From Hexactinellida sp. DTS-2022 (Eukaryota > Porifera > Hexactinellida), in contig JAPNXP010000008.1 in assembly GCA_028753945.1 (NCBI GenBank), positions 248,001 to 312,000 on the forward strand: 64,000 nt of DNA. The letters are read 5' to 3'. Below the pieces are notes generated by a model. That model did not search any database and had not been told where the DNA came from. It saw only the letters and a program-made list of their open reading frames with translations. Numbering within the stretch: position 1 is the first letter of the stretch; each line of letters starts with the position of its first letter. This document shows, one piece after another, positions 2,901 to 51,690 of the stretch. Made by a program: the position numbers and the translations under genes.

Positions 2901-2960
2901 AGGCGAGAATATATACAAATAGCAGAATACAGAATAAACCACCAAAAACAATAAGAACCT

Positions 2961-3037
2961 AACTATCGAACATATAAAATCAGATTGGAAGTATGACTGA
3001 GTCTTCTACTTCTATCGTCACAGCTAGTTTGATAGCT
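2961..3037 (-). promoter_or_regulatory. SECIS element, SelW-like copy 1
   Basis: On the minus strand, in the 3' UTR about 70 nt after the TAG. The core is GTGA (3021-3018), 12 nt, AA, 21 nt, TGAT (2982-2979), which is the UGA/GA quartet plus apical AA of eukaryotic SECIS elements. Helix II is GAUaGAAGUA paired with UACUUCcaAUC. A mini-stem GAC/GUC above the AA suggests form 2. Helix I is AGCUAUC with GAUAGUU. The sequence is identical to the SECIS of the second copy. Confidence 0.82.
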
Positions 3038-3090
3038 AATGTTACGAACTGTATTGGAGTATACCCTGTAGACTACTGGAAGGAAGCTGG

Positions 3091-3345
3091 CTATTTCAGT
3101 TTAGCCAAAGCCTCTTTTACGGCTCCAAAATCAACTTCTGTTGTTGGATGACCTCCACACTTGTTATAGACTTTTTCATCTCCACATTTAATTTCGAAAT
3201 TACAGCTTGTATCCTTACAAGATATGTTGAATTTCCCAGGAAATTCCTGGTTTGTATTCGCTACGAATTTGTCGTAGCGACTTTTTCACTTTCATCATCA
3301 GCGTCAGCATTTCACTGTCAAATTATTTACATTGGCATCTGCCAT
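3091..3345 (-). CDS. Selenoprotein W-like protein with five in-frame UGA (copy 1)
   Basis: An 84-codon frame on the minus strand, ATG at 3345 and TAG ending at 3091, readable only if five UGA codons (residues 14, 16, 17, 18 and 20) encode selenocysteine. The loop reads C-U-R-U-U-U-K-U-KSRY. Family features match SelW (Rdx, thioredoxin-like fold): a short beta strand ending in Cys13, the KS(K/R)Y motif, EFPGKFNI (mammalian EFPGRLDI), FEIK (FEVM) and a C-terminal KEALAKLK helix. SelW proteins are small cytosolic thiol oxidoreductases with a CxxU motif. Residue 18 aligns with the canonical Sec. Residue 15, where the partner Cys should be, is Arg here, but C13-x-x-U16 offers a shifted CxxU. A 9-bp hairpin follows the last UGA and a SECIS lies in the 3' UTR. 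TATATAAATA occurs 103 bp upstream. Its partner lies inverted at 6106-6351. Function beyond redox is unknown. Confidence 0.83.
3253..3281 (-). promoter_or_regulatory. Candidate selenocysteine redefinition hairpin, copy 1
   Basis: On the minus strand, TCGCTACGA, loop CAAAT, TCGTAGCGA forms a perfect 9-bp stem starting 5 nt after the last UGA. This placement matches Sec redefinition elements known in SelN-type mRNAs. The outer pair is T-A here and C-G in copy 2, a compensatory change. Confidence 0.7.
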
Positions 3346-3447: not shown

Positions 3448-3457
3448 TATTTATATA
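3448..3457 (-). promoter_or_regulatory. TATA box of SelW-like copy 1
   Basis: TATATAAATA on the minus strand, 103 bp before the ATG. The same 10-mer stands before copy 2, and the sequence between box and ATG is alignable, so the duplication included the promoter. Confidence 0.5.
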
Positions 3458-5991: not shown

Positions 5992-6001
5992 TATATAAAT
6001 A
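5992..6001 (+). promoter_or_regulatory. TATA box of SelW-like copy 2
   Basis: TATATAAATA, 105 bp upstream of the ATG. The identical motif lies at the matching place before copy 1. Confidence 0.5.
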
Positions 6002-6105: not shown

Positions 6106-6351
6106 ATGGCAGAAGTCAAAGCTATTAATTTAACAGTGAAATGCTGATGCTGATGCTGATGATGAAAAAGCCGCTACGACAAGTTCGTAGCGGATACAAA
6201 CAAGGAATTTCCTGGGAAATTCAACATTGTTTGCGAGCCTACTACATGCAATTTTGTCGTGACACATGATGTGCAAGTATACTCCAGTGAAAAGGTTCCT
6301 ATTGGCGATGATTTTGGACTAATAAGGGATACTTTGGCTAAACTGAAATAG
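6106..6351 (+). CDS. Selenoprotein W-like protein with five in-frame UGA (copy 2)
   Basis: An 81-codon frame, ATG at 6106 and TAG at 6349-6351, with UGA at residues 14, 16, 18, 19 and 20 (6145-6165). The loop reads CUCUCUUUKSRY. Aligned to SelW (CGAUGYKSKY), Cys15 and Sec18 fall on the canonical CxxU pair; the extra Sec residues fill the loop and extend before it. The rest matches the family: an NLTVKC first strand, EFPGKFNI, a central strand region, and a short C-terminal helix DTLAKLK. The length agrees with about 87 residues in mammals. The loop has exactly the same codon count as copy 1 although its codons differ. A 9-bp hairpin starts 5 nt after the last UGA, and a SECIS lies 70 nt past the stop. 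Expected to be a cytosolic redox protein; a role in selenium storage or metal binding is speculation. A conventional reading would end after 13 residues. Confidence 0.85.
6171..6193 (+). promoter_or_regulatory. Candidate selenocysteine redefinition hairpin, copy 2
   Basis: CCGCTACGA, loop CAAGT, TCGTAGCGG: a perfect 9-bp stem beginning 5 nt after the final UGA, inside the coding sequence. Copy 1 keeps the stem with a T-A pair replacing the outer C-G pair. One of the two substitutions is synonymous (AGC/AGT) and the other is Asp/Asn. Confidence 0.72.
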
Positions 6352-6404
6352 CCAGCTTCATTCCAGTAGTCTACAGGGTATACTCCAATACAGTTCGTAA
6401 CATT

Positions 6405-6481
6405 AGCTATCAAACTAGCTGTGACGATAGAAGTAGAAGACTCAGTCATACTTCCAATCTGATTTTATATGTTCGATAGTT
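6405..6481 (+). promoter_or_regulatory. SECIS element, SelW-like copy 2
   Basis: Helix I AGCUAUC (6405-6411) pairs with GAUAGUU (6475-6481). After an internal loop comes GTGA (6421-6424), 12 nt, AA (6437-6438), 21 nt, TGAT (6460-6463). Helix II pairs GAUaGAAGUA with UACUUCcaAUC, topped by a short GAC/GUC stem, so it looks like a form 2 SECIS. About 190 nt of 3' UTR around it differ from copy 1 at one base only, far less than the coding region. Confidence 0.83.
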
Positions 6482-6529
6482 AGGTTCTTATTGTTTTTGG
6501 TGGTTTATTCTGTATTCTGCTATTTCGTT

Positions 6530-8069
6530 ATGTTTTATTAAAAAATATAAAAGTTTAAAAAGTTGGTTTAACTGCGACTCTTTAACCCATTCAATAAATC
6601 CTGTGGAAATAATTCACTATAACTTAATTGATTACGAAATTTGCTTCATTCTAAGGTACAGTATAACCTCGTTAGTACGACTACGGACTTAATAACAATA
6701 TTATTGTATACTGTATATTACTCTGTATATAGCATGTTAATTTCAGTACCCAAGGGAACATTTGGTGTTAATTTTTTTCCCCTAATAGCAAGTTCGCCTA
6801 TTAGCAAACTAATTTCGTTCAAAACTCGAACACCATGCACCACTGTATTCACAAAAGTTCAAACTTTACGAAACGCAAATTTCCAAGTAAATTAGATCCC
6901 CCTCCCTATATGTCACGCTTTTTTGGACAATTTTGTAATACAGAAAGGTTGGTCTGTCACACATTGGTTGACCCCCTACCCTTGTAAGCGTTACGTAACT
7001 TTTGAACGTCCCAAAGATCGAGTCTATATTATATTATAATATATGATAAATTGATATACGTACAGTCGACTCCGAATAATAGAGCCACCTCGGGACCAGG
7101 TTGCTTTGACTCGATTAAGTGGAGAAATCTGTTAACCGAAATTATTTTGAGTCAAACTGTAATTCCATCCTATAAATCCTGTGAAATTTTGACCCGATTA
7201 AGCGGAGAAATCTATTAATCGATGGCTCTATTAAGCGGAGTCGACTGTAAGTAGTAATCTCATTAGTACGAAGTACGAACACGGTTAATACGAACACTAT
7301 TTCAGTACCCTTCAAAGCATTTTCAATACAAATGACATTGGTTTATATGAATTCGGGATAAGGCGAACTCTTCACTGTATATCAGAAACTAGGATCGGGA
7401 TCATATTTTCTAGGATTTCTAATGCCCTTACTACTGTATTTGCTCCAGATATTCTCAATAACAATTCTATGGAATTAAAGGGATGGTTTACATGCACTTA
7501 TCATTAAATTAATTTATGTTAACAAGCTATTACTCCCCCATTCAAATTCTTGCAATGCCTTTGTAAATAAGTAATCTTTTCAATTTACAGATATCAGTGT
7601 TATTGTTACCTGATCAATGAACTATTCATAGATAACAACGTACACCTGGCCCAAAGTATTGTATCTAATGGAGACACAATAATGACTCCGGTTAATACGA
7701 ATTCAGATAATACTATTGACTCCGCTTAATAGAGCTACAGGTTAATTGATTTTTTTGCTTAATGGAATCAAAGTTTCACAGGATTTATAGGACGGAATGA
7801 CAGTTTGGCTTAAAATATTTTCGGTTATAGATTTCTCCGCTTAAGCGGGTCGAAGTAACCTGGTCCCGAGGTGACTCTATTAAGCAGAGTTGACTGTATG
7901 ACAAAATTTCGACGGTCAAGTGAACATTTACTGTTAATTTCGCATATTAGCAAACAAATTGAAAAATGTGACTTGCTAATTACGCGAACACCACTGTATT
8001 TACATCAAACGGTATGTTAACCGATATTTCGCTTTATGCGTGTTCTTATTAACGAGAGTCTACTAGATA
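6530..8069. other. Transposon-filled intergenic region before SMU1
   Basis: Contains a family D element (about 6690-6850), a complete family B MITE (7063-7247), a family C remnant (about 7250-7380), the inverted repeat arm 7440-7600, another family B copy (7712-7896) and a family D remnant (about 7900-8000). No gene is supported. Confidence 0.65.
7063..7247. mobile_element. MITE family B, full copy
   Basis: 185 bp with TA on both sides, left end CAGTCGACTCCGAATAATAG and right end the inverse of CAGTCGACTCCGCTTAATAG. Internal repeats of the CCGATTAAGCGGAGAAATCT block give the element a folded-back layout. Confidence 0.8.
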
Positions 8070-20517: not shown

Positions 20518-21471
20518 ATGGGAGAAAGGAAAGTTCTGAACAAATACTACCCACCTGATTTCGACCCAGCTAAAATCCCTAAACTACTACTTCCAAAAGA
20601 CCGCCAGTACGTAGTGCGCTTAATGGCCCCATTCTCAATGCGCTGCACAACATGTGGTGAATACATTTATAAAGGCAAAAAATTTAACGCTCGTAAAGAA
20701 ACCGTTTGGGACCAAGAATATTTGGGAATTCGTGTTTACCGTTTTTATATCCGTTGTACACGATGTATTTCTGAAATAACTTTTAAAACTGACCCTCAAA
20801 ACACTGATTATGTTTGTGAGAATGGAGCAGTAAGGAATTTCCAAGCCGAACGGTTGGCTTTAATGGCTGCAGAAGAACAGGAGAGATTGAAGGAAAACGA
20901 GGAAGCTGACAATCCAATGTTAGCACTCGAGCGTCGAACGAAGGAAAGCAAACAAGAAATTGATATTCTTGATGCATTAGAAGGCATAAAGGATCAAAAT
21001 AGTCGATTGGAACAAGTGAGTGTACAGAGAATATTGGAAGGATATGGTACAGTAGAATGTAAGACTGAAGTTGTGATTACAGTGAATGATGATGAAGAGT
21101 TAGTAAAGAAATATTTCGGAGCAATAAAAAGTGAAAAATCAGTTGAGGATTGTCCTGAAATTGAAGTTAGCGAAATTAATCCAGAATTTGAGAAAAAAAG
21201 AAAAATTGAGGATGAACTACTCCCAGAAGGGAAGAGGTGCCATACAGATGAACTTGAAATTCAAAAACTAAACTCAAATGGCTTACAAAAGAAATCTTAT
21301 AAATCTAAACTTCAATCTTTTGTAACAATAAAATCAACAAGTAAACAAAACACAGTCTTACCAAACACGAAGAAAATTGTCACGCCAACAAAACCTGAAA
21401 TTTCTAGTTCAAAGGGACTATTAAAGCTAGGAGATTATTCGTCTTGTAACTCAGACACAGATTCTAACTGA
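20518..21471 (+). CDS. YJU2: YJU2 (CCDC94) splicing factor
   Basis: YJU2 joins the spliceosome with the NineTeen complex and promotes the first step, near the branch site. This 317-residue single-exon protein starts [20 protein letters not shown], nearly the same as human. It has the zinc-binding set [19 protein letters not shown] and CTRC (Cys at about 43, 46, 80 and 83), followed by [18 protein letters not shown] and RNFQAE. A charged helical stretch covers about 115-170 ([18 protein letters not shown]). The C-terminal 130 residues are Lys/Ser/Glu-rich and poorly conserved, as in other animals. Stop is UGA. Confidence 0.95.
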
Positions 21472-23031: not shown

Positions 23032-26000
23032 ATGGAAGAGTTTTGTAAACATATGAATATATCTCACCCTCAATTGATAACTCTTCAGGATGCTATTAAA
23101 ATACACTCCACATTACCTCAAAAAGATATTACATCTTTTCATGAGCTACCCAAGTATATGTTGAATCGAATTATGATTCTTGATTGTGCCAGTAGGCAAA
23201 TACCGCAATCGCTCGATCAACCTGTCTCTACTCAAAATATAACTTTATCGGAAATGATGAATTTAATTTCTCAAAATAAGACCGACACTAATGCTAGCGA
23301 AGTACATCCGATGGATGTTTTTATTTATTTATTCATTAAATGCGATTCTCTATTTCGTCAAACGTTCATTACGCAGGTTTCAAAATGCCAGCTTTCTATT
23401 CCATTAATTACTACCTACCCTTCTGCACAAAATCCTACTTTTTATTTATTTGCTCTTAAAACTCTTTATAAAGACTATCTTACCAATGATAACGTAGGTA
23501 AATCTTTCTCAGTTATTGAGGAAAAACTGCCAATCATTTCATTCATGCGAATGGGTGAATGTGGCAAAAGTCAGAAATCAGAAATGTTGAATCAAATTAT
23601 TGGAATTTCAGACTATTTTTTTCATAGAAATTTGGTAGGTAATTCTAAAATGAGATTTTTTCTTGATGGAACTATTGAAATTGGTTGGTTTCTTCCCAAG
23701 TACCAACCTCAAACCTCAGGAAATGTTTTATTCTCAACGCCATTTACCATTTTAAATTTTAGAGGAAATGCATGGAAATATCATAAGCAAATAAATTTCA
23801 TCACATCCATTTCAACCCTCATATACTTGTTCATACCTATTAATCAATGTGATCATCAACTCTCCGAGTGTCTTACTGAATTTCACGAAATATTTTGTTC
23901 AAAATCGGTCTACTTGTTGTATCAAGGCGAAGAATCTATAAGTATGGATTTTGTACAAAAGATTCCCAACTTTCTTTCTATTTTAGGTGACACTGTAATA
24001 TTTCTCCATAAATGTAGTTTAGGAGACGATTCGAAACTTCTTTCTTTCAATATATTTTCAAGTCTGAGAAAAGTTGATAATCTCAAGATGTGTTTAGATG
24101 ATTGTTTAAATGTAGCAAGGAAGAACTCCATCTGTACTGACATAGACGAAGATAATATCAGAAAATCTCAACCTATAGTTGATAAAATGATAAGGAAAAT
24201 GTTGAGCTCTGTTCAAAGCGAATCGATGCAGTCAAAGCATCTTGCAGTTGTGAAACAATCTATGCTGCCATTACAAGGTGATTGTTGGTTAGAATGGGCA
24301 GCAGCAAAACGGGAATCACACAAAGTTGGCAAACCAGAGATGCTAGAATCTGCACGGAAAAAAATGAAGGAAGCGCGTAAAAATCAGTTAACAATCCTAA
24401 GAAATCCGTCTTTACTCCTATCTGATATTCTTACTCATTGTAAAACCTTTGGTAGATCTGGTGGAGAGTTTTATACCATTTGGCATTTGCTAAAAAATGA
24501 TTTGAATTCCTTATCTACCCAATACCTTCCGCCCCTTTATGAGGAATATAAAAAGTGGCATACATTGAGTTACTCTACTGATTTTGGTCCTAAATTATCT
24601 TTGGAAAATCAACACGAAAGGAAAAAAGAAAGCAAAGAGAAACTACTTTCTGCTGCAAAAAATATTGCGAAGTCCTCATTTGGAATTGAGCATATTTTCC
24701 GCGAATTAGGTCAATTGTTTGAGGCATATTCGACTTGTACTACAAAGGAAAAATATAACTTAGATAGAAGTATAGAATTCCGCTTTTGCAGTTTAAGGGA
24801 AATTGCGGCAAAACTCTTAATCGAGGGTCATGCATTCGAGATTATCGATGGTGATGTAAATCATGTTGCTATTGATTGGGTTTCTAATGTTTTGGAATGT
24901 TTATCTGATATTGTTGGATCTAAAAAGACAATATTTGTCCTTTCGATTCTTGGAACTCAAAGTACTGGAAAGTCGACTCTCTTAAATACAATGTTTGGGG
25001 CTGATTTTCCTGTCTCCTCTGGTCGCTGTACAAGAGGTATATTTATGCAACTTATCCCAATCGAAGAAAAACTAAGAGCAAAACTTAAATATGACTATCT
25101 TGTTATACTTGATACAGAAGGACTACGTGCACCTGAATTATCTATTAATTCCAATTACAAACGTGATAATGAACTAGCGACTATTGCAGTAGGTCTTGGA
25201 GATGTAACTGTAATAAATATGTCTGGTGAAAGTCATACTGATGTTCAAGATATATTACAAATTATCGTATTTGCATTTATTCGAATGAAAGAATCGTCTG
25301 TCAGACCACGTTGTATATTTGTACATCAGAATGTACCTGATGCTCATGCTCACACTAATCTCCTAACAGCAAGAAGTAATCTTATAAAAACTCTAGACAG
25401 AATGACGGAATGTGCAGCACAACAGGAGAACCAAAATACATTCTATAAAAAATTTGCGGATGTTATAGAATTTCACCCTGAGCAAGAAGTGTTTTATTTT
25501 CCTGGTTTATTCGAGGGCCAACCTCCTTTGAATAGAATTTCCGCTGGCTATTCTGAGAATGCAGCGAATCTCCGAGAATATTTGCTGAATTGTTTTTCTA
25601 ATAACCGAGTTAGGAAATTTCAAACAGTCTTAGAGTGGTCAAAAAAGCTTCAATCACTATGGAAATCTGTTTTAGAAGAGAACTTTGTGTTTTCTTACCG
25701 AAATGCTCTTGAAGTTACTTCAAGGTTTGAATTAGATCACAAAATTTCATCTTGGCACTCCTCTTACATTCAGTCGTTGAATAACTGGAAATCTAAATCT
25801 CTAAATGAACTTTTCAATGCTGATCTCGATATAATCGACGATACATGGAAAAATGTTATGTTCGATTTGCAACAAGAAAAAATTCAACCTTCAATTGAAA
25901 TTTCATCTCAAGAGGAGTTGATGAAATATTATTTCGTTGATCATGATAGTGTTGAGATCTTCTTACAATGGGGAGCCAATACTGTTTTGGATTTTGAAAT

Positions 26001-27945
26001 GAAGAGAGAAAAACATCTGAAGAAAATGGAGGAGGAATATAAGATGATTTATAAAGTCCAAAAAACTAAGAAAAGGATGGATGAAAATTTTGTTAACTAT
26101 CGCAAAGATATTGTATCAAAGGTCTTAGCTCTATTCACTGACATGAAAAAGAGAGGCGAATCTATCAAAGACAAATTTTTTGTTGACTCAAAATTTACAA
26201 CTATTTGGATTGAATGGAAATCACAAATAGAAGTTAATACTGCCCCTGAGTTATCTGACATAAGTGCTGACTTACAGAGTGCCCTACTTGAATCTGAAAT
26301 AATCAAATCAATGCATGTTTTACCAGATAAATCAACTCTCATCAATAAAACTGAAGATTTTATCATTATGGGGCAAGAAAGTTTTCAAAATCTATCGAAT
26401 CCACGTTCTGATACAGAGATTAATTCATCTTATTTTACTTTAAATGAGTTACTTCATATCAGCATTAGATATATTTCTACAATTTTTTCCGGGAAGATTA
26501 AGGCGGCTAACGCTGGTAGTAGTCAATTTAAAAATGTGTTGAGTATTTTGAGTACAGAATGTGAGAGGAAAATCAACGACTATTTATCTTCACTTTTAAA
26601 CAACGAGAGTCCATATGACCAAAACTACTTTCATATTATTATCAATCAATGCTATGAAACTTTGAGTAAGCATAATTCTTCACAGAAAAATAAGTTCAAA
26701 TGTTCACTGGAACTCAAAACTGATTTTATTTTTGATTTTATATTCTATCAATGTTGCAAGGCTATCCCAATACTTCAACAAATTAATGATCAATTCATTT
26801 CCAGAACAAGTCTCGATGTAAAGTTTGACCAGTTGGAGACTAAACTGAAATTTACTTTTGATCAACTCTGTGAAGGAATTGAATCAGAATACTTGTGTGC
26901 ATCAGAATTAGCTAAAATCACCATGTCTGGTTTAAAATATAGTTTGAGTGATTTTGTTCCACAGGTATTTCTCTCAGTTTTTCTGGATTTTCCTAAAAAT
27001 AAGTCCACGTATAGAGATAGACCTTCATTAATTCTATCTATTTTAAAAGATTTAGCTCGTAAAGGAATATTCGATGATTATTTATCCTATATTGAAAATC
27101 CAATCAATTTTTTGCTTGATTATGTTCAAAAACAACTACGAACATTTTTAATTTTGCAGGATGTTAGAAAAACTATTAAAAAGAAAGTCCTTGAAAAGGT
27201 AATCATGATAACTGAATTTTATTCTGAAGTATGTAACGAAGTTTGTACACAAGAAGATTATGAAATTCAAATTACATGGATGTATTTCAAAAAGCAATTC
27301 TATTCGGAAATAAAACACAGAATTCGTAATGTTTCATACAATGATTTTGATGTATTAGACATACATAAAATATCTAATTATTCTCAATTCTGTCATTTTT
27401 ATAGCGAAGAGCTAAAGCTTCTTATTGAAGAAACAGACTGGACTGAATGGATTGTCAGCATTATTGAGAAAGAGGTATCACTTTATAAAAATATCACTGA
27501 TACCATTCTCGAATGTGAGGAATTATGTCCTTTCTGTGCCGAACTTTGTCAACTGTCTAGTGGTGATCATGAACATTATTGTGGTACTTTTCATCGTCCT
27601 AAAGGTATCAATGGGTGGTATGGTCGTGAAAATAGGCAGATATCTTTAAATGAGTGTACCTTAAGTATTAAAAATAGAATGTCATTCTGGTATCATGATA
27701 AATTGTACGAGTACGTTAATTATAAGACTGTTAATTCAAAGTTTAACTCTTGGAAAATATTAGGACAAGATGCTCTCGAATCTAAATATTGGCACTGGGT
27801 GCTATATCAATTTGAAGATAACTTTGTGGATCATTATGAGATTCTGAAGAATGATTACACTTATAAGTGGAGTATTCTAACTAAAGAAGAGGTTATTGAG
27901 GACCTAGAAAATCATTATCGCGTTCATATTTTTAGGAAAGATTGA
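23032..27945 (+). CDS. Interferon-inducible very large GTPase (VLIG/GVIN)-like protein 1
   Basis: A 1637-residue intronless coding region, a layout shared with vertebrate VLIG/GVIN genes (about 2400 residues there). The central G domain has P-loop GTQSTGKS (641-648), the family signature NTMFGADFPVSSGRCTRGIF, G3 DTEGL (694-698) and FVHQNVPD (763-770) where other GTPases have NKxD. An N-terminal ISFMRMGECGKSQKSEMLNQ (about 170-189) resembles a degenerate second G domain. The middle is long and helical. Near the C-terminus (about 1495-1532) comes a Cys/His cluster CPFCAELC, HEHYCG and HRPKGINGW, a VLIG mark. Vertebrate members respond to interferon; the role here is unknown, perhaps immune. Tandem paralogue follows at 29000. 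Stop is UGA. Confidence 0.9.
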   Translation: MEEFCKHMNISHPQLITLQDAIKIHSTLPQKDITSFHELPKYMLNRIMILDCASRQIPQSLDQPVSTQNITLSEMMNLISQNKTDTNASEVHPMDVFIYLFIKCDSLFRQTFITQVSKCQLSIPLITTYPSAQNPTFYLFALKTLYKDYLTNDNVGKSFSVIEEKLPIISFMRMGECGKSQKSEMLNQIIGISDYFFHRNLVGNSKMRFFLDGTIEIGWFLPKYQPQTSGNVLFSTPFTILNFRGNAWKYHKQINFITSISTLIYLFIPINQCDHQLSECLTEFHEIFCSKSVYLLYQGEESISMDFVQKIPNFLSILGDTVIFLHKCSLGDDSKLLSFNIFSSLRKVDNLKMCLDDCLNVARKNSICTDIDEDNIRKSQPIVDKMIRKMLSSVQSESMQSKHLAVVKQSMLPLQGDCWLEWAAAKRESHKVGKPEMLESARKKMKEARKNQLTILRNPSLLLSDILTHCKTFGRSGGEFYTIWHLLKNDLNSLSTQYLPPLYEEYKKWHTLSYSTDFGPKLSLENQHERKKESKEKLLSAAKNIAKSSFGIEHIFRELGQLFEAYSTCTTKEKYNLDRSIEFRFCSLREIAAKLLIEGHAFEIIDGDVNHVAIDWVSNVLECLSDIVGSKKTIFVLSILGTQSTGKSTLLNTMFGADFPVSSGRCTRGIFMQLIPIEEKLRAKLKYDYLVILDTEGLRAPELSINSNYKRDNELATIAVGLGDVTVINMSGESHTDVQDILQIIVFAFIRMKESSVRPRCIFVHQNVPDAHAHTNLLTARSNLIKTLDRMTECAAQQENQNTFYKKFADVIEFHPEQEVFYFPGLFEGQPPLNRISAGYSENAANLREYLLNCFSNNRVRKFQTVLEWSKKLQSLWKSVLEENFVFSYRNALEVTSRFELDHKISSWHSSYIQSLNNWKSKSLNELFNADLDIIDDTWKNVMFDLQQEKIQPSIEISSQEELMKYYFVDHDSVEIFLQWGANTVLDFEMKREKHLKKMEEEYKMIYKVQKTKKRMDENFVNYRKDIVSKVLALFTDMKKRGESIKDKFFVDSKFTTIWIEWKSQIEVNTAPELSDISADLQSALLESEIIKSMHVLPDKSTLINKTEDFIIMGQESFQNLSNPRSDTEINSSYFTLNELLHISIRYISTIFSGKIKAANAGSSQFKNVLSILSTECERKINDYLSSLLNNESPYDQNYFHIIINQCYETLSKHNSSQKNKFKCSLELKTDFIFDFIFYQCCKAIPILQQINDQFISRTSLDVKFDQLETKLKFTFDQLCEGIESEYLCASELAKITMSGLKYSLSDFVPQVFLSVFLDFPKNKSTYRDRPSLILSILKDLARKGIFDDYLSYIENPINFLLDYVQKQLRTFLILQDVRKTIKKKVLEKVIMITEFYSEVCNEVCTQEDYEIQITWMYFKKQFYSEIKHRIRNVSYNDFDVLDIHKISNYSQFCHFYSEELKLLIEETDWTEWIVSIIEKEVSLYKNITDTILECEELCPFCAELCQLSSGDHEHYCGTFHRPKGINGWYGRENRQISLNECTLSIKNRMSFWYHDKLYEYVNYKTVNSKFNSWKILGQDALESKYWHWVLYQFEDNFVDHYEILKNDYTYKWSILTKEEVIEDLENHYRVHIFRKD

Positions 27946-28999: not shown

Positions 29000-31900
29000 A
29001 TGGAAGAGTTTTGTAAACATATGAATATATCTCACCCTCAATTGATAACTCTTCAGGATGCTATTAAAATACACTCTACATTACCTCAAAAAGATATTAC
29101 ATCTCTCCATGAGCTACCCATGTATATGTTGAATCGAATTATGATTCTTGATTCTGCCAGTAGGAAATTACCAAAATCGCTCAATCCACTTGTTCCTACT
29201 CAAAATATAACTTTATCGGAAATGATGAATTTAATTTCTCAAAATAAGACCGATACTAATGCTAGCGAAGTACATCCGATGGATGTTTTTATTTATTTAT
29301 TCATTAAATGTGATCCACTTTTCCGTCAAACGTTCATTACGCAGGTTTCAAAATGCCAGCTTTCTCTTTCATTAATTACCACATATCCTTCTGCACAGAA
29401 TCCTACTTTTTATCTGTTTGCTCTTAAAACTCTTTACAAAGACTATCTTGCTGATGATAACGTAGGTAAATCTTTCTCTGTCACAGAAGAAAAACTGCCA
29501 ATCATTTCATTCATACGAATTGGTGAATGTGGCAAAAGTCAGAAATCAGAAATGTTGAATCAAATTATTGGAATTCAAGATTACTTTTTCCATAGAAACC
29601 TACTTGGTAATTCTAAAATGAGATTTTTATTTGATGGAACTGTCGAAATCGCTTGGCTCCTTCCCAAGAGTCATTCCCAAAGCGCAGAAAGTTCACCATT
29701 GGTCATTCTCAATTTGAGAGGAGATGCATCGCTGTTTTCTAAGCAGCTTAATTTCATCACAGATGTATCTACTCTCTTATATATATTTATTCCTATTAAT
29801 CAATGTGATTCACAAATGTCCAAATACTTGATTGATTTCCACCAACAATTTGAGTCTAAAGCAGTTTATTTGTTGTATAAAGGCGACGATTCTGAGCGCA
29901 TTGACTTTGAGCAAGATATTCCCAATTTTCTGCTCAATCTAAGAGATTCTGTTTTATTTTTACGAAAAGAGAGTTTGGGAGATGATTCAAACATACTTTC
30001 TGTAAATATATTTTCAAATCTTCGAAATGTTCCTTTGATCAGACTATCATTGAACGATTGTTCGGATGTAGCGAGGAAGTACTTCATTGCCATCGACTTG
30101 GATGAGAATAATATGAGTGTTTGCCAGTCTATTGTGGACATAATAATTGTGAAAATGTTGAGCACTGTTCAAAATGAACCAATACAGTCAAAACATTTTG
30201 CAGATGTGAAACAGTCAATGCTACCATTACAAGGTGAATGTTGGTTAAGTTGGACAGCAGCAAAACGGGAATCTTATAAAGTTGGCAAGCCGGATTTAAT
30301 AGAATCTGCACAGAAAAAAATGCATCAAGCGCGTCAAGAACAGTTAAAGTTATTAGGAAACCCATCTTCACTCTTATCCGATATTCTTGATCACTGTAAA
30401 ACTTTTGGTAGGCCTGGTGGAGAGTTTTATGTAATTTGGCATTTGTTAAGAAATGAGTTTAATTCTTTATCTAAACAGTACCTTCCACCCCTTTATGAAG
30501 AATATAAGAAGTTTCATATGTTGAGTTACTCTACTGATATTGATTCTACTTTGTCTTTGGATGAGCAACACTCCATTCAGAAACAAAGAAGAGAAAACTT
30601 AACGACTGCAGCTAATAATATTGCAAGAGCTTCTTTTGGGATTGAACATATTTTTCGTGAATTAGGTCAAGTATTTGAGACATATTTTAACTGTAACTCA
30701 CAAGAAAGAATCAACTTAGATAAAAGTCTAGAATTTCAAGTAGATAATTTATGGAATATTGCTGCTCAGCTGTTATATGAAGGTCACGCTTTCGAAATTA
30801 TTGATGGTGATGTTAACCATGTAGCTATTGATTGGGTTTCCAGTGTTCTGAAAGGTTTAGCTAATTTTATTGGTCATAAGAAGAAAATATTTGTCCTTTC
30901 GATTCTTGGAACTCAAAGTACTGGAAAGTCGACTCTCTTAAATACAATGTTTGGGGCTGATTTTCCTGTCTCATCTGGTCGTTGTACGCGGGGTATATTT
31001 ATGCAACTTATTCCAATCGAAGAGAAACTCAGATATCAGCTTAAATATGACTATCTTGTTATACTTGATACTGAAGGATTACGGGCACCTGAATTATCTA
31101 TTAATTCCTCTTACATACGGGACAATGAGTTGGCTACTATGGCAGTAGGCCTTGGAGATTTAACCCTTATTAATATGTCTGGTGAGGGACTTAGTGAAGT
31201 CCAAGATATCTTGCAAATTATTGTTTTTGCCTTTATTCGAATGAAGGCATCATTTTCCAAACCAAGATGCATATTTATACATCAGAATGTACCAGATACT
31301 CATGCACACACTAATCTCCTAGCAGCAAGAAGTAATCTCATCAAAACTCTAGATAAAATGACAGAATGTTCAGCTCAACAGGAGAATCAAAATACAATAT
31401 ACAAACAATTTGGAGATGTCATAGAATTTCACCCTGAGCAAGAAGTGTTCTATTTTCCGGGCCTTTTCGAGGGTCGACCTCCTTTGAATAGAATTTCTGC
31501 GGGATATTCTGACAATGCAGCAATTCTTCGGCAATATATACTAAACTGTTTTTCCAATAACCAACCTAAAACGTTTCAGACAGTCATAGAGTGGTCAAAT
31601 AAGCTGAACTTACTATGGAAATCAGTTCTTGAAGAAAACTTCGTATTTTCTTACCGAAATGCTCTTGAAGTAACATCAAGGTTTGAATTAGATCATAAAA
31701 TTTCATCTTGGTACTCAACATACATTCAATCACTAAATAACTGGAAATCTGAATCACTAAATCATCTTTTTAACGCTGATCTCGATCATTTGGATGAAAC
31801 TTGGAAATCTTTAATGGACCAATTTCGACAAGAAAGAATCCAACCTTCTATTGAAATCTCATTACAAGACAAGTTAATCAATTCTTGTTTCGTCGAACAT

Positions 31901-33898
31901 GATCATATTGAGATATTCACTCAATGGAAAGCAAGTACTATTCTATACTTTAAAGGGAAGCGGGCGGAACAATTAGAGAAAATGCAAAATGAATTTCAAA
32001 AGATTTATGGATTCCAAAAGACGAAGAAAAAAATGGACGAAACTTTTATACAATATCGCAAGAATATTGTTTTAAAAGTTATAGATTTATTCAATGATAT
32101 GAATAGAATTGGTGAATCTCTCAAAGATAATAGTATCATAGAATCAAAATTTACAGGAATTTGGACGGAATGGAAATCACAAATAGAAGTTCATAAGCCT
32201 GAAATATCTGATATATGTAGTGACTTGCAAAGTGCCCTATTTGAATCTGAAATAATTAAATCAACGCATGCAATATCTAATAAATCCGCTCTCATTAACG
32301 ATACAAACAATTATATTTCCATTGGGGAAGATAGTTTTGAATATCTTTCAATATTGATCTCAAAAATAGATTCTGAATCTTCCTATTTTACCTTATTCGA
32401 TTTACTCAAGAAAATCATCATCAGCATTGGACATATTTCCAAGATATTTTCCAGAAAGTCAGATCCTGGTATTAACCAATTTAAAACCTTACTGGGAATT
32501 ATAACTACAGAATGTGACAGGAATATCAATGATTATTTATCTTCTCTTTTAAACAATGAGAGCCCATACGACCAGAATTCTTTTCATATAATTATACAAC
32601 AATGCTATGAAATTTTAAGCAAACACAATTCTTCTGAGAGTAGAAACTTTCAATCGTCATTACAACTAAATAATGATTTTAATTTTAATTTTATCTTCTA
32701 TCAATGTTGCAAGGCTATTCCAAGACTTCAACAAATCCAAGATCAATTCAATTCCAGAACAAGTCTCGATATGAAATTTAGCCATTTGGAGGAAATTTTA
32801 AGAACTACTTTTGGTAAACTCTGTGAAGGAATTGAATCAGAATACTTATGCGCATCAGAACTAGCTAAGATCACTATGTCTGGTCTGAAAGATGGTTTGG
32901 CTGATACTGTTCTCCAGTTATTTCTTTCTGGTTTTATGGATGATCCTAAACACAGTACGACATATATAGATAGATCTTCACTCATTCTGTCCATCTTAAA
33001 AGATCTAGCCCACAATAAAGTATTCGATGATTACATGTCTTATGTACAACATCCAATCAACTTTTTAGTTCATCACGTCCAAAATCAACTTAAACAATAT
33101 TCGCAAAATGATGCTGTAAGGAGAAAAATCACAAATAAAATACTTGAAGAAGTAAATGAGATAACTGAATTCTACTCTGCTGTATGTAATGAATTTCGGC
33201 CACAAGAAGATAGTGAAATTCCTATTACATGGATGACGTTTAAATCAAATTTTTACTCGAAAATAAAACACAAAATTCGTAATGTTTCATTTAATGATTT
33301 AGATATATTAGACATACATGAAATTTCGAATTATTCTCAATTCTGTGATTTCTATAGCGAAGAACTAAAGCGTCTTGTTCAAGAAACAAAATGGACTGAA
33401 TGGTTTGTCAAAATTATTAGGAAAGAGGTATCACTTTATAAAATTATCACTGATTCTATTCTCGAATGTGAGGAATTATGTCCCTTTTGTAATGAACTAT
33501 GTCAGCTGTCTTGTGGTTACCATGAACATTATTGTGGTACTTTTCATCGTCCACAAGGTATCAAAGGGTGGCATGGCCACGATGATAGGAAAATATTTTT
33601 GTATAGTTGCACAAGTGGCATTAAATTTAAAACACAATTTTATTACCGTGATGTATTGTACAATTACGTTGATTACAAAACAGTTAATGCAAGATTTAAT
33701 TCTTGGAATATTCTAGGCGAAGACAACCTAGATTCCAAATATTGGAATTGGGTTCTTTTTCAGTTTGAGGATGAATTTGTGGCTCATTATAAAATTCTGA
33801 AAAATGAGAACACTTCCCAATGGAGTAATCTAACTGCAGAAGAGGTCATTATGGACCTAGAAAATCATTATCGCGTTCATATTTTTAGAAAAGACTAA
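29000..33898 (+). CDS. Interferon-inducible very large GTPase (VLIG/GVIN)-like protein 2
   Basis: A 1632-residue intronless tandem paralogue of the gene at 23032, roughly three quarters identical by eye. It keeps the N-terminal pseudo-P-loop (FIRIGECGKSQKS), GTQSTGKS, SSGRCTRGIF, DTEGL, FIHQNVPD and the C-terminal CPFCNELC, HEHYCG, HRPQGIKGW. Divergence is highest in residues about 200-330 and in the long helical region after the G domain. In contrast the P-loop region holds 86 identical nucleotides in a row, synonymous sites included. All GTPase motifs are intact, so both genes are probably functional. The first 100 nt of both coding regions are also almost identical. Confidence 0.9.
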   Translation: MEEFCKHMNISHPQLITLQDAIKIHSTLPQKDITSLHELPMYMLNRIMILDSASRKLPKSLNPLVPTQNITLSEMMNLISQNKTDTNASEVHPMDVFIYLFIKCDPLFRQTFITQVSKCQLSLSLITTYPSAQNPTFYLFALKTLYKDYLADDNVGKSFSVTEEKLPIISFIRIGECGKSQKSEMLNQIIGIQDYFFHRNLLGNSKMRFLFDGTVEIAWLLPKSHSQSAESSPLVILNLRGDASLFSKQLNFITDVSTLLYIFIPINQCDSQMSKYLIDFHQQFESKAVYLLYKGDDSERIDFEQDIPNFLLNLRDSVLFLRKESLGDDSNILSVNIFSNLRNVPLIRLSLNDCSDVARKYFIAIDLDENNMSVCQSIVDIIIVKMLSTVQNEPIQSKHFADVKQSMLPLQGECWLSWTAAKRESYKVGKPDLIESAQKKMHQARQEQLKLLGNPSSLLSDILDHCKTFGRPGGEFYVIWHLLRNEFNSLSKQYLPPLYEEYKKFHMLSYSTDIDSTLSLDEQHSIQKQRRENLTTAANNIARASFGIEHIFRELGQVFETYFNCNSQERINLDKSLEFQVDNLWNIAAQLLYEGHAFEIIDGDVNHVAIDWVSSVLKGLANFIGHKKKIFVLSILGTQSTGKSTLLNTMFGADFPVSSGRCTRGIFMQLIPIEEKLRYQLKYDYLVILDTEGLRAPELSINSSYIRDNELATMAVGLGDLTLINMSGEGLSEVQDILQIIVFAFIRMKASFSKPRCIFIHQNVPDTHAHTNLLAARSNLIKTLDKMTECSAQQENQNTIYKQFGDVIEFHPEQEVFYFPGLFEGRPPLNRISAGYSDNAAILRQYILNCFSNNQPKTFQTVIEWSNKLNLLWKSVLEENFVFSYRNALEVTSRFELDHKISSWYSTYIQSLNNWKSESLNHLFNADLDHLDETWKSLMDQFRQERIQPSIEISLQDKLINSCFVEHDHIEIFTQWKASTILYFKGKRAEQLEKMQNEFQKIYGFQKTKKKMDETFIQYRKNIVLKVIDLFNDMNRIGESLKDNSIIESKFTGIWTEWKSQIEVHKPEISDICSDLQSALFESEIIKSTHAISNKSALINDTNNYISIGEDSFEYLSILISKIDSESSYFTLFDLLKKIIISIGHISKIFSRKSDPGINQFKTLLGIITTECDRNINDYLSSLLNNESPYDQNSFHIIIQQCYEILSKHNSSESRNFQSSLQLNNDFNFNFIFYQCCKAIPRLQQIQDQFNSRTSLDMKFSHLEEILRTTFGKLCEGIESEYLCASELAKITMSGLKDGLADTVLQLFLSGFMDDPKHSTTYIDRSSLILSILKDLAHNKVFDDYMSYVQHPINFLVHHVQNQLKQYSQNDAVRRKITNKILEEVNEITEFYSAVCNEFRPQEDSEIPITWMTFKSNFYSKIKHKIRNVSFNDLDILDIHEISNYSQFCDFYSEELKRLVQETKWTEWFVKIIRKEVSLYKIITDSILECEELCPFCNELCQLSCGYHEHYCGTFHRPQGIKGWHGHDDRKIFLYSCTSGIKFKTQFYYRDVLYNYVDYKTVNARFNSWNILGEDNLDSKYWNWVLFQFEDEFVAHYKILKNENTSQWSNLTAEEVIMDLENHYRVHIFRKD

Positions 33899-45365: not shown

Positions 45366-46595
45366 ATGGCTGTTGTTAATCCATTGAGTGAAGATAACTA
45401 CGAGTTAGAATTGAATCGAGTGAGAGAGAAGATTAGAAATAAATTTGTTGAATTAACTGATTGCTTGAAAGCTAGAGAAAGTGAGCTGTTGAGAGAGTTG
45501 GATAATATTCTAGCTTCTTATCTCTCTTATAGAAGCGAATTGGAGAAAGTAAATGAAAAGAAACGAGAAATTGAAAAGACTAAAGTATACCACCAAAATG
45601 AAATTACATCGTCTCATATCAAATCTATTCATGAAAACATTATTTCACAATTGAACACTGAACTAAAAGCTATCGAAACTCCAATAGAACCTAAAATGGT
45701 TAGATTCGAATGTGACAGCAACAAAATGTTAGCTGAATTGAACAAGTTGGGTAAGTTGGTAGAGAAAGTGAGAAGTGGAATTGACTATAAAAGCAAGAAA
45801 CAACCTCTAGTGAGTGTTTGTGATAGTGGAAAGGGAATGGAACTACTTAATTTGCCACTAGGTGTAACTGTTGATAATAAAACAGGAAATATTTACATAG
45901 CAGATCAAGGTAATAACTGTGTAAAAGTATTCGATAGTACTGGCAAGTATTTGTTAAAATTTGGAGACAATGAAGGAGAAGGAAAGATGAACTTCCCATT
46001 AAGCGTAGCTATTTGTGGAGACAGGATTCTCATTTCACAAGGTAGCCATTGTATTTTGAACTATCAACTCGATGGGAAGTTTGTTTCTAAGATTGGTAAA
46101 TTGGGAAATGCAAAATTGGAATTTGACTGGCCTAGTGGTCTAACTATTGATGAGTCTAATGGAAACATTTATGTTAGTGATTGTCATAATAATCGTATTC
46201 AGATTCTTTCTCTGGACTTTCGTTTTATATCTCAGTTTGGAAAAGATACACTCAAATACCCTTATGATGTTAAACTTTCCAAAGAATACATTTATGTTCT
46301 CGATTCATCTAATCCTTGTCTCCATCTCTACAACTATAATCACATTCTAGTTAAGAGTGTTATATCTCGAGGCAAAGGAATGTACGTTATTAATCCTCAT
46401 TACTTCTTCGTTGACAAAACTGATTATATTCTAATTTCAGACCGAGATTCAAACTCTATACATATTTTCAATACTGAATTCAAATTGATTCATAAGATCT
46501 CTGTGTCTCCCCATCCTATGGGAATTACAATGGACAACAGAAGAAGAATTATAGTGGTGTGTCGAGCTAACAATAACTGTCTACAGATATTTTAG
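45366..46595 (+). CDS. Coiled-coil NHL-repeat protein, member a
   Basis: 409 residues, one coding exon after a conserved leader with a TTTCAG 3' splice site. Residues about 8-130 are helical/coiled coil (DCLKARESELLRELDNILAS, YLSYRSELEKVNEKKREIEK). After a SKKQPLVSVC linker, about six NHL repeats form a beta-propeller (LPLGVTVDNKTGNIYIADQG, NCVKVFDSTGKYLLKFGDNE, GLTIDESNGNIYVSDCHNNR, ISVSPHPMGITMDNRRRIIV), ending NNCLQIF. Layout recalls the coiled-coil and NHL parts of TRIM2/TRIM71-type proteins but lacks RING and B-box. A ligand-binding or adaptor role is possible; function unknown. One of a tandem family to the window end. Confidence 0.85.
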   Translation: MAVVNPLSEDNYELELNRVREKIRNKFVELTDCLKARESELLRELDNILASYLSYRSELEKVNEKKREIEKTKVYHQNEITSSHIKSIHENIISQLNTELKAIETPIEPKMVRFECDSNKMLAELNKLGKLVEKVRSGIDYKSKKQPLVSVCDSGKGMELLNLPLGVTVDNKTGNIYIADQGNNCVKVFDSTGKYLLKFGDNEGEGKMNFPLSVAICGDRILISQGSHCILNYQLDGKFVSKIGKLGNAKLEFDWPSGLTIDESNGNIYVSDCHNNRIQILSLDFRFISQFGKDTLKYPYDVKLSKEYIYVLDSSNPCLHLYNYNHILVKSVISRGKGMYVINPHYFFVDKTDYILISDRDSNSIHIFNTEFKLIHKISVSPHPMGITMDNRRRIIVVCRANNNCLQIF

Positions 46596-48277: not shown

Positions 48278-49486
48278 ATGGCTACTGTTAATCCTTTGAG
48301 AGAAGATAATTACGAGTTAGAATTACGTCGAGTGAGAGAGAATATTATAAATAAATTTATTGAATTAACTGATTGCTTGAAAGCTAGAGAAAATGAGCTG
48401 TTGAGAGAGTTGGATAATATTCTAGCTTCTTATCTCTCTTATAAAAGCGAATTGAAGAAAATTAATGATAAGAAAAGAGAAATTGAAAAGACTAAATTAT
48501 ACCACCAAAATGAAATTACATCGTCTCATATAAAATCTATTCACGAAAACTTTATTTCCATTCTAAACACAGAACTCAAAGCAATTAAGACTCCCATAGA
48601 ACCTAAAATTATTAGTTTTGAGTGTGACAGCAACAAAATATTAGCTGAATTGAACAAGTTGGGTAAGTTGGTAGAGAAATTCAGGCCTGAAATTGACTAT
48701 AAAAGCAAGAAACAACCTCTTGTGAGTGTTTGTGAAAGAGGAGAGGGAATGGGACAACTTGCTTTGCCACGTGATGTAACAGTTAATAACAAAACAGGAA
48801 ATATTTATGTTTCAGATTTGGACAACAATGTGAAAGTATTTGATAATGCTGGCAAGTATTTGTACACATTTGGAAACAATTCCAAGCCATTAAGCGTAGC
48901 TATTTGTGGAGACACGATTCTCATTTCACAAGGTAACCATTGTATTCTGAATTATCAACTCAATGGGAAGTTTATCTCTAAAATAGGTAAACAGGGAAAA
49001 GGAAAATTGGAATTTGACTGGCCTAATGGTCTAACTATTGATGACTCAAATGGAAACATTTATGTTAGTGATTGTCATAATAATCGTATTCAGGTTCTCT
49101 CTATGGATTTTCGTTTTATATCTCAATTTGGAAAAGAAACACTCAAAGATCCTCTTGATGTTAAACTCTCCAAAGAATACATTTATGTTCTTGATGAATC
49201 TAATCCTTGTCTCCATCTCTACAGCTATAATCACATTCTACAGAAGAGTGTTATATCTCTAGGCAAAGAAATGGAAGTTATTAATCCTCATTACTTCTTC
49301 GTTGACAAAACTGATTATATTCTAATTTCAGACCGAGATTCAAACTCTATACATATTTTCAATACTGAATTCAAATTGATTCATAAGATCTCTGTGTCTC
49401 CCTATCCTATGGGAATTACAATGGACAACAGAAGAAGAATTATAGTGGTGTGTCGAGCTAACAATAACTGTCTACAGATATTTTAG
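48278..49486 (+). CDS. Coiled-coil NHL-repeat protein, member b
   Basis: 402 residues, same architecture as member a. It differs by a shortened second NHL repeat (FGNNSKPLSVAICG, lacking the EGEGKMN stretch) and SDLDNNVKVFDNAG in the first. The coiled-coil segment is of the KREIEKTKLYHQNEI type, and the end is the DNRRRIIVVCRANNNCLQIF type. ATG context and the leader TTTCAG splice acceptor are conserved (48240-48277). Confidence 0.85.
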   Translation: MATVNPLREDNYELELRRVRENIINKFIELTDCLKARENELLRELDNILASYLSYKSELKKINDKKREIEKTKLYHQNEITSSHIKSIHENFISILNTELKAIKTPIEPKIISFECDSNKILAELNKLGKLVEKFRPEIDYKSKKQPLVSVCERGEGMGQLALPRDVTVNNKTGNIYVSDLDNNVKVFDNAGKYLYTFGNNSKPLSVAICGDTILISQGNHCILNYQLNGKFISKIGKQGKGKLEFDWPNGLTIDDSNGNIYVSDCHNNRIQVLSMDFRFISQFGKETLKDPLDVKLSKEYIYVLDESNPCLHLYSYNHILQKSVISLGKEMEVINPHYFFVDKTDYILISDRDSNSIHIFNTEFKLIHKISVSPYPMGITMDNRRRIIVVCRANNNCLQIF

Positions 49487-51419: not shown

Positions 51420-51690
51420 ATGCTAATTGTAGCTGTGTGTAATTATTTGCAGATATATATATTTTCTTGCATTTATTTTTTAAGTATTAAGTTACTATTA
51501 ACCATAATAATTGAAGAAATTATTATTACCTTCTATAGATAACGTCGATATTCCACCTGAGAATATTCATTCTAAGAAAACAGATTAGGTTTCAATACGT
51601 GCTAAATAGGATGATCTTATAGTATATGAACTTTATATATATTAATTTTATATTTCAGAAAACTATCTCTAAATTTCCAAAGGTTTGCGA

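Follow-up and report, generated by a model that had tools for sequence, protein, structure and literature searches.

A SelW-like gene pair in a hexactinellid sponge with five in-frame UGA codons in the predicted active-site loop: a probable five-selenocysteine SelW

Can a SelW-like reading frame that contains five UGA codons within a stretch of seven codons encode a selenoprotein, or is it the remnant of a gene? This question is raised by a locus of Hexactinellida sp. DTS-2022 located in a 64,000-nucleotide stretch of contig JAPNXP010000008.1 (referred to here as C17; C17:248001-312000), termed the window below. The original prediction of a SelW-like frame running from ATG to TAG, with five UGAs at codons 14 to 20, was confirmed at positions 6106-6351 (+). 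This frame, designated copy A, starts with an ATG at 6106, ends with a TAG at 6349-6351, and encodes 81 amino acids (MAEVKAINLTVKCUCUCUUUKSRYDKFVADTNKEFPGKFNIVCEPTTCNFVVTHDVQVYSSEKVPIGDDFGLIRDTLAKLK). Its UGA cluster (6145..6165, +) reads U C U C U U U and comprises codons 14, 16, 18, 19, and 20 (6145-6147, 6151-6153, 6157-6159, 6160-6162, and 6163-6165); no other stop codon precedes the TAG. The five predicted Sec residues are accompanied by five Cys residues (13, 15, 17, 43, and 48), giving rise to three CxxU motifs, namely, C13-x-x-U16, C15/U18, and C17/U20.

The same window contains a second five-Sec SelW-like coding sequence, copy B, that was overlooked by the earlier reading. It is oriented divergently from copy A (3091..3345, -; stop TAG at 3093-3091) and encodes 84 amino acids (MADANVNNLTVKCURUUUKUKSRYDKFVANTNQEFPGKFNISCKDTSCNFEIKCGDEKVYNKCGGHPTTEVDFGAVKEALAKLK). 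In its cluster (3286..3306, -), which reads U R U U U K U, codons 14, 16, 17, 18, and 20 are TGA, and copy B also has five Cys residues (13, 43, 48, 54, and 63) beside the five Sec. Four of the five TGA codons of each copy (14, 16, 18, and 20) are common to both, as are Cys 13, Cys 43, and Cys 48. The alignment of C15 and U18 with the canonical CxxU, which had been proposed initially, holds for copy A but not for copy B, which has Arg15 and lacks both the C15/U18 and the C17/U20 motif. The sole CxxU kept by both copies is C13-x-x-U16, located after strand 1. With respect to the canonical paralogues, the loop of both copies is longer by one codon, and both show a three-residue deletion that, like Cys 43 and Cys 48, is absent from these paralogues. 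TAA, TAG, and frameshifts are absent from both copies, and their length differences correspond to whole codons. A genome-wide scan with the pattern AAATGCTGAYGCTGATG resulted in two matches, one in each copy, indicating that the cluster is unlike a dispersed repeat.

We have searched the genome (112.4 Mb, 18 contigs) with copy A, which resulted in at least six matches at an E value of ≤0.001, all of them on C17; this search scores the best candidates only, and the match counts are thus lower bounds. At least four one-TGA SelW genes, likewise overlooked by the earlier reading, are present elsewhere on C17, containing either CGGU (L003 and L004) or CSGU (L005 and L006). A query of the L005 type produced at least nine matches up to an E value of 10, corresponding to the six genes, L026/L027, and L028; copy B was reached only downstream of its UGAs. 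L026 and L027 (C17:414568 and 481379) contain CCGU and were matched with an E value of 0.008 each, and L028 (C7:3383969), with GQSU, was a weak match (E value of 0.416). L026/L027 possess an extra in-frame TGA near the C terminus (in L026, ..KALNK-TGA-12 codons-TAA), as does L028 (..IKNA-TGA-AGC-TAG), which may be either a stop or a second Sec. A canonical SelW block, consisting of three genes and a relic, is found twice in very similar form (C17:414.5-419.4 kb and 481.4-486.3 kb); these blocks are 66-67 kb apart and represent either a recent segmental duplication or an assembly artifact. Homologue searches with copy A (Cys replacing Sec) and with an alignment of the sequences that follow the UGAs in both copies retrieved no homologue, and a search with the canonical L003 protein retrieved two canonical-type fragments of 58 residues that start after the Sec position. 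There was no match to the cluster pattern in the viral contigs scanned, nor to the SECIS pattern in the prokaryote genomes scanned.

Profile scans, like the comparison with canonical paralogues, were conducted with frames that were one residue short at the C terminus. Canonical proteins of the L003 and L005 types scored over the cut-off with Pfam Rdx (E values of 1.8e-13 and 5.8e-14, respectively) and TIGR02174 (8.2e-16 and 1e-14). Copy B matched TIGR02174 with an E value of 1.2e-5 and Rdx with 0.021, both below the cut-off, and no match of copy A to either profile was reported up to an E value of 10. SelP_N was found in neither copy (Pfam up to an E value of 10; for copy A also at 0.001); it was also found nowhere in the genome, but the control likewise matched nowhere, so that this result does not demonstrate its absence. 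AlphaFold2, supplied with four sequences, generated a low-confidence model (pLDDT of 55.8) with the arrangement E7-13, H18-34, E39-45, E51-55, and H67-80, in which the UGA cluster falls in the loop that follows strand 1 and in the first part of helix 1. The best Foldseek match of this weak model in the PDB was mouse SelW (2NPB; E value of 0.038, probability of 0.96, rmsd of 10.6), with no match at an E value of 0.001. In sequence searches against the PDB, canonical L003 matched C17orf37 (2LJK; 1.4e-6) and SelW (2NPB; 1.1e-4), and copy B had no match up to an E value of 5.

How often would such frames be expected by chance? Frames of at least 70 codons that are free of TAA/TAG and contain five TGAs in seven codons were observed twice in the window, namely, in copies A and B, and once in 60 Markov resamplings (3.84 Mb; approximately 0.02 per window). 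Three-TGA frames numbered 8 in the window, compared with 115 over all 60 resamplings (approximately 2 per window), which shows that this null is lenient. Comparison of the full frames of copies A and B from codon 21 to the end revealed a dS of 0.75, a dN of 0.30, and an omega of 0.40; bootstrapping by codon placed omega between 0.16 and 0.84 (2.5 to 97.5%), with 0.7% of the values at or above 1. Of 1,000 neutral replicates with the same difference count, 23 had an omega as low, 166 were free of stops, and 9 combined both features. The most constrained part corresponds to codons 21 to 41, with an omega of 0.12 derived from 3 synonymous and 2 nonsynonymous changes. In neutral simulations that considered TAA and TAG only, both daughters were stop-free in 29 to 263 of 1,000 cases, depending on the divergence and the starting copy, and the absence of stops alone is thus weak evidence. 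The neutral probability of keeping all four shared TGAs was 0.031, 0.0045, and 0.001 at divergences of 0.3, 0.5, and 0.67, respectively. The chance, TAA/TAG, and TGA retention simulations, as well as the following distances, are based on the frames lacking the C-terminal residue. The N-terminal halves of copies A and B differ at 11 of 96 positions (0.11), whereas the distance between the C-terminal halves (50/120, 0.42) resembles that of copy A to the canonical genes (46/120 and 45/120, 0.38). The half containing the cluster may thus have been homogenized between the copies. The UGA cluster may have been spread by gene conversion, and some of the constraint on the C-terminal half may predate the cluster.

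The two copies also share their downstream region with the canonical genes. The 3'UTR segment of copy A (6352..6530, +) is nearly identical across six paralogues and is also present in copy B (2917..3090, -). In full-frame comparisons, the 180-nt 3'UTRs of the six SelW genes showed 96-99% identity in the five pairs measured (174-178 of 179-180 aligned positions). This identity begins directly at the stop codon; in the coding sequences of these pairs, synonymous divergence ranges from 0.5 changes per site to saturation. At +200..+350, similarity was slightly above the maximum of the shuffles for L003-L005 (0.43 versus 0.41) and did not exceed it for the other four pairs. A 185-nt query starting at the end of the coding sequence identified eight places, all on C17. 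Six of them belong to the SelW genes, with identities of 97-99% (100% for the query itself), and the other two are orphans (77%). These orphan 3'UTR relics (L013 1501-1620 and L014 1501-1621; C17:419278 and 486150) have lost the SECIS 3' TGAT, and no SelW frame was found upstream of them in the flanking DNA examined; in one relic, 95 of 114 aligned positions match the UTR. The 3'UTR uniformity may be due to selection, in the form of a very strong constraint, to gene conversion or concerted evolution, or to both.

Within this segment, the SECIS candidate that had been noted (GTGA-N12-AA-N21-TGAT) is present with precisely this spacing at 6421..6463 (+), 255 nt after the last UGA codon of copy A, and copy B has an identical core at 2979..3021 (-). 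The core spacing is kept in nine paralogous sequences, and in L026 the core is retained while the rest of the UTR has largely diverged. The motif combined with a helix filter retrieved 8 rows (6 sites) from the window and 7, 3, 6, 8, 9, 3, 2, 5, 5, and 9 from ten resamples. Since the motif is no rarer than expected by chance, it was not taken as independent proof. Rfam made no SECIS call in the whole window at the gathering threshold or in 6300-6700 at a relaxed threshold, and the predicted fold of 6390-6490 was no more stable than expected (z of -0.52). For the 12 SECIS pairs, 85.4% of the cells pair across nine rows that represent four distinct sequences; a single pair changes on both sides, which for four distinct sequences was equaled in 205 of 500 shuffles.

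Upstream, both copies have the sequence TATATAAATA, a possible TATA box, whose end is separated from the ATG by 104 nt in copy A (5992..6001, +) and by 102 nt in copy B (3448..3457, -). The similarity between the copies, measured on full frames, exceeded the shuffled maximum at -105..-1 (0.62 versus 0.48), -200..-106 (0.52 versus 0.46), and -350..-201 (0.46 versus 0.39). As this likeness extends to -350, it does not single out a promoter.

Does the sponge possess the machinery to insert Sec? The tRNA-Sec profile had five matches in the genome. One of them was over the cut-off (75.8 bits) and was identified as tRNA-Sec (tca) by ARAGORN, which assigned the remaining four to tRNA-Ser; in the control, the profile matched 14 of 14 genomes, 5 of them above the cut-off. 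SepSecS was represented by one match (E value of 2.8e-126), obtained with a profile that is not wholly specific, since it matched 3 of 14 control genomes, including Bacillus subtilis. The earlier statement that UGA is a normal stop nearby agrees with the window, in which 6 of the 15 ORFs of at least 150 amino acids end in TGA, some of them with clear Pfam domains; they include a Yju2-like ORF (20518-21471) and one URGCP-like ORF. A changed genetic code was therefore rejected, given these TGA-terminated ORFs and the tRNA-Sec in the genome.

Several explanations that dispense with a five-Sec protein were considered. Copies A and B could be decaying SelW duplicates in which the UGA cluster is a scar of stop codons, produced by expansion of a TGATGC repeat, and the full-length protein has been lost. 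In accordance with decay, the cluster of copy A is nearly a TGATGC repeat, copy A has no Pfam Rdx match, and the C-terminal halves of the copies are as distant from each other as copy A is from the canonical genes. However, decay is difficult to reconcile with the existence of two copies that are free of frameshifts, have TGA as the sole in-frame stop, and show an omega of 0.40 past the cluster. Moreover, AAATGCTGAYGCTGATG is confined to these two genes, and their 3'UTRs belong to the set with 96-99% identity in five pairs, as opposed to the 77% of the orphan relics. We consider such a pseudogene scenario unlikely.

The excision of the cluster as a short intron is, in our judgment, very improbable. 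Nucleotides 31-99 of the coding sequence form a 69-nt, phase 0 GT...AG segment that is in frame in both copies, where the GTGAAA donor and the AG acceptor occupy equivalent positions, and its removal from copy A would join MAEVKAINLT to EFPGKF...; other in-frame GT-AG pairs also exist (8 listed for copy A and 6 for copy B). Yet there is no pyrimidine tract before the AG, and in the alignment this segment corresponds to coding sequence in four one-UGA paralogues that have the same SECIS core. Its excision would remove the loop together with the larger part of helix 1, and codons 21 to 41 are the most protein-constrained of the frame. Alternatively, only the first UGA or two might be decoded, at a low rate, and the transcript would act as a selenium-sensing mRNA or specify a short peptide, with full-length protein being rare. 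UGA decoding competes with termination (PMC9599142), and the first UGA is codon 14. Nevertheless, a pure sensor would not need a constrained frame after the cluster, and we regard inefficient decoding of this kind as quite improbable.

The reading of copies A and B as a real selenoprotein gene pair coding for a five-Sec SelW is probably correct on sequence grounds. The multi-Sec SelW put forward originally is supported by the five-TGA paralogue, the intact frames, the constraint beyond the TGAs, the common SECIS core, and the presence of tRNA-Sec and SepSecS. We judge it likely that both genes specify a SelW-fold protein with a five-Sec loop, in which all UGAs are redefined via one SECIS and which probably conducts selenol/thiol chemistry. 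Transcription of both copies, Sec insertion at every UGA, and the activity of the product are the parts of this reading that we infer. In the proposed mechanism, the mRNAs of copies A and B would run through the frame unspliced, and SECIS-bound factors would bring Sec-tRNA to the five UGAs in turn, with one SECIS of the same kind as in the ordinary SelW paralogues serving all of them. The single CxxU loop would have turned into a five-Sec cluster between strand 1 and helix 1, in which the five Sec are accompanied by three Cys (copy A) or one Cys (copy B), and the product would be a SelW-like protein whose loop combines Sec and Cys. The many close selenols together with the added Cys pair suggest that the protein may bind metals or electrophiles or perform multi-electron redox reactions, and a dense selenol/thiol cluster for these purposes would be the most likely function; alternatively, the copies may serve as a selenium store. 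On balance, we lean slightly toward a polyselenol SelW, present as two paralogues, that has five Sec, three of them consecutive, in a thioredoxin-like active loop, is served by one SECIS, and plays a metallothionein-like or selenium-storing role.

SELENOP is the main known case of an mRNA in which many UGAs are decoded. As predicted for copies A and B, numerous Sec are found in this single animal gene product, but it differs in its N-terminal domain and in the location of its Sec, mainly in the C-terminal part (PMC3473315), and it has two SECIS (PMC3316567). The same paper describes SelL, which resembles the reading proposed for copies A and B in having close Sec inserted via a single SECIS but belongs to another family and has two Sec, two residues apart. 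Canonical CxxU SelW proteins of the Rdx (SelW-SelT-SelH) group are similar to both copies in length and flanking sequence but contain one Sec instead of the five predicted here. SelW with two Sec was reported in amphioxus (PMC3473315), UxxU SelW in amphioxus and Ostreococcus lucimarinus (PMC7539508), and multi-Sec SelW also features in PMC2375036; these proteins share the multi-Sec character predicted for copies A and B but have two Sec and no five-Sec cluster. PDI_e, which has a GUGUU motif, occurs in algae only and was introduced as the first known selenoprotein to have two Sec next to each other, both according to PMC7539508. As predicted for copies A and B, Sec are clustered and partly consecutive on a thioredoxin-like fold, but PDI_e has three Sec, two of them consecutive, and belongs to another protein family. 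The initial claim of no described equivalent was thus too strong, as UxxU SelW and GUGUU PDI_e are in print. Among the matches listed in the accessible parts of the open literature compared, which included PMC2874816, PMC3828610, PMC13188914, PMC8744743, PMC2398784, and PMC9925728, there was no SelW with more than two Sec and no case of five Sec within seven codons.

Because genes with one UGA and genes with five occur in the same genome and are practically identical in 3'UTR and SECIS core, the influence of UGA number and spacing can be separated from that of the SECIS. Three consecutive UGAs would show how the Sec machinery copes with adjacent recoding events, and a thioredoxin-like scaffold bearing five selenols within seven residues would, if true, be unusual for redox or metal chemistry. 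Such genes are easily overlooked where annotation reads UGA as a stop.

The window also contains two tandem, uninterrupted ORFs of URGCP-type GTPases (23032-27945 and 29000-33898; 1,637 and 1,632 amino acids). Two adjoining ORFs of like size encode NHL-repeat proteins (45366-46595 and 48278-49486), and ORFs of similar length to the latter are located at 51685 and 59882.
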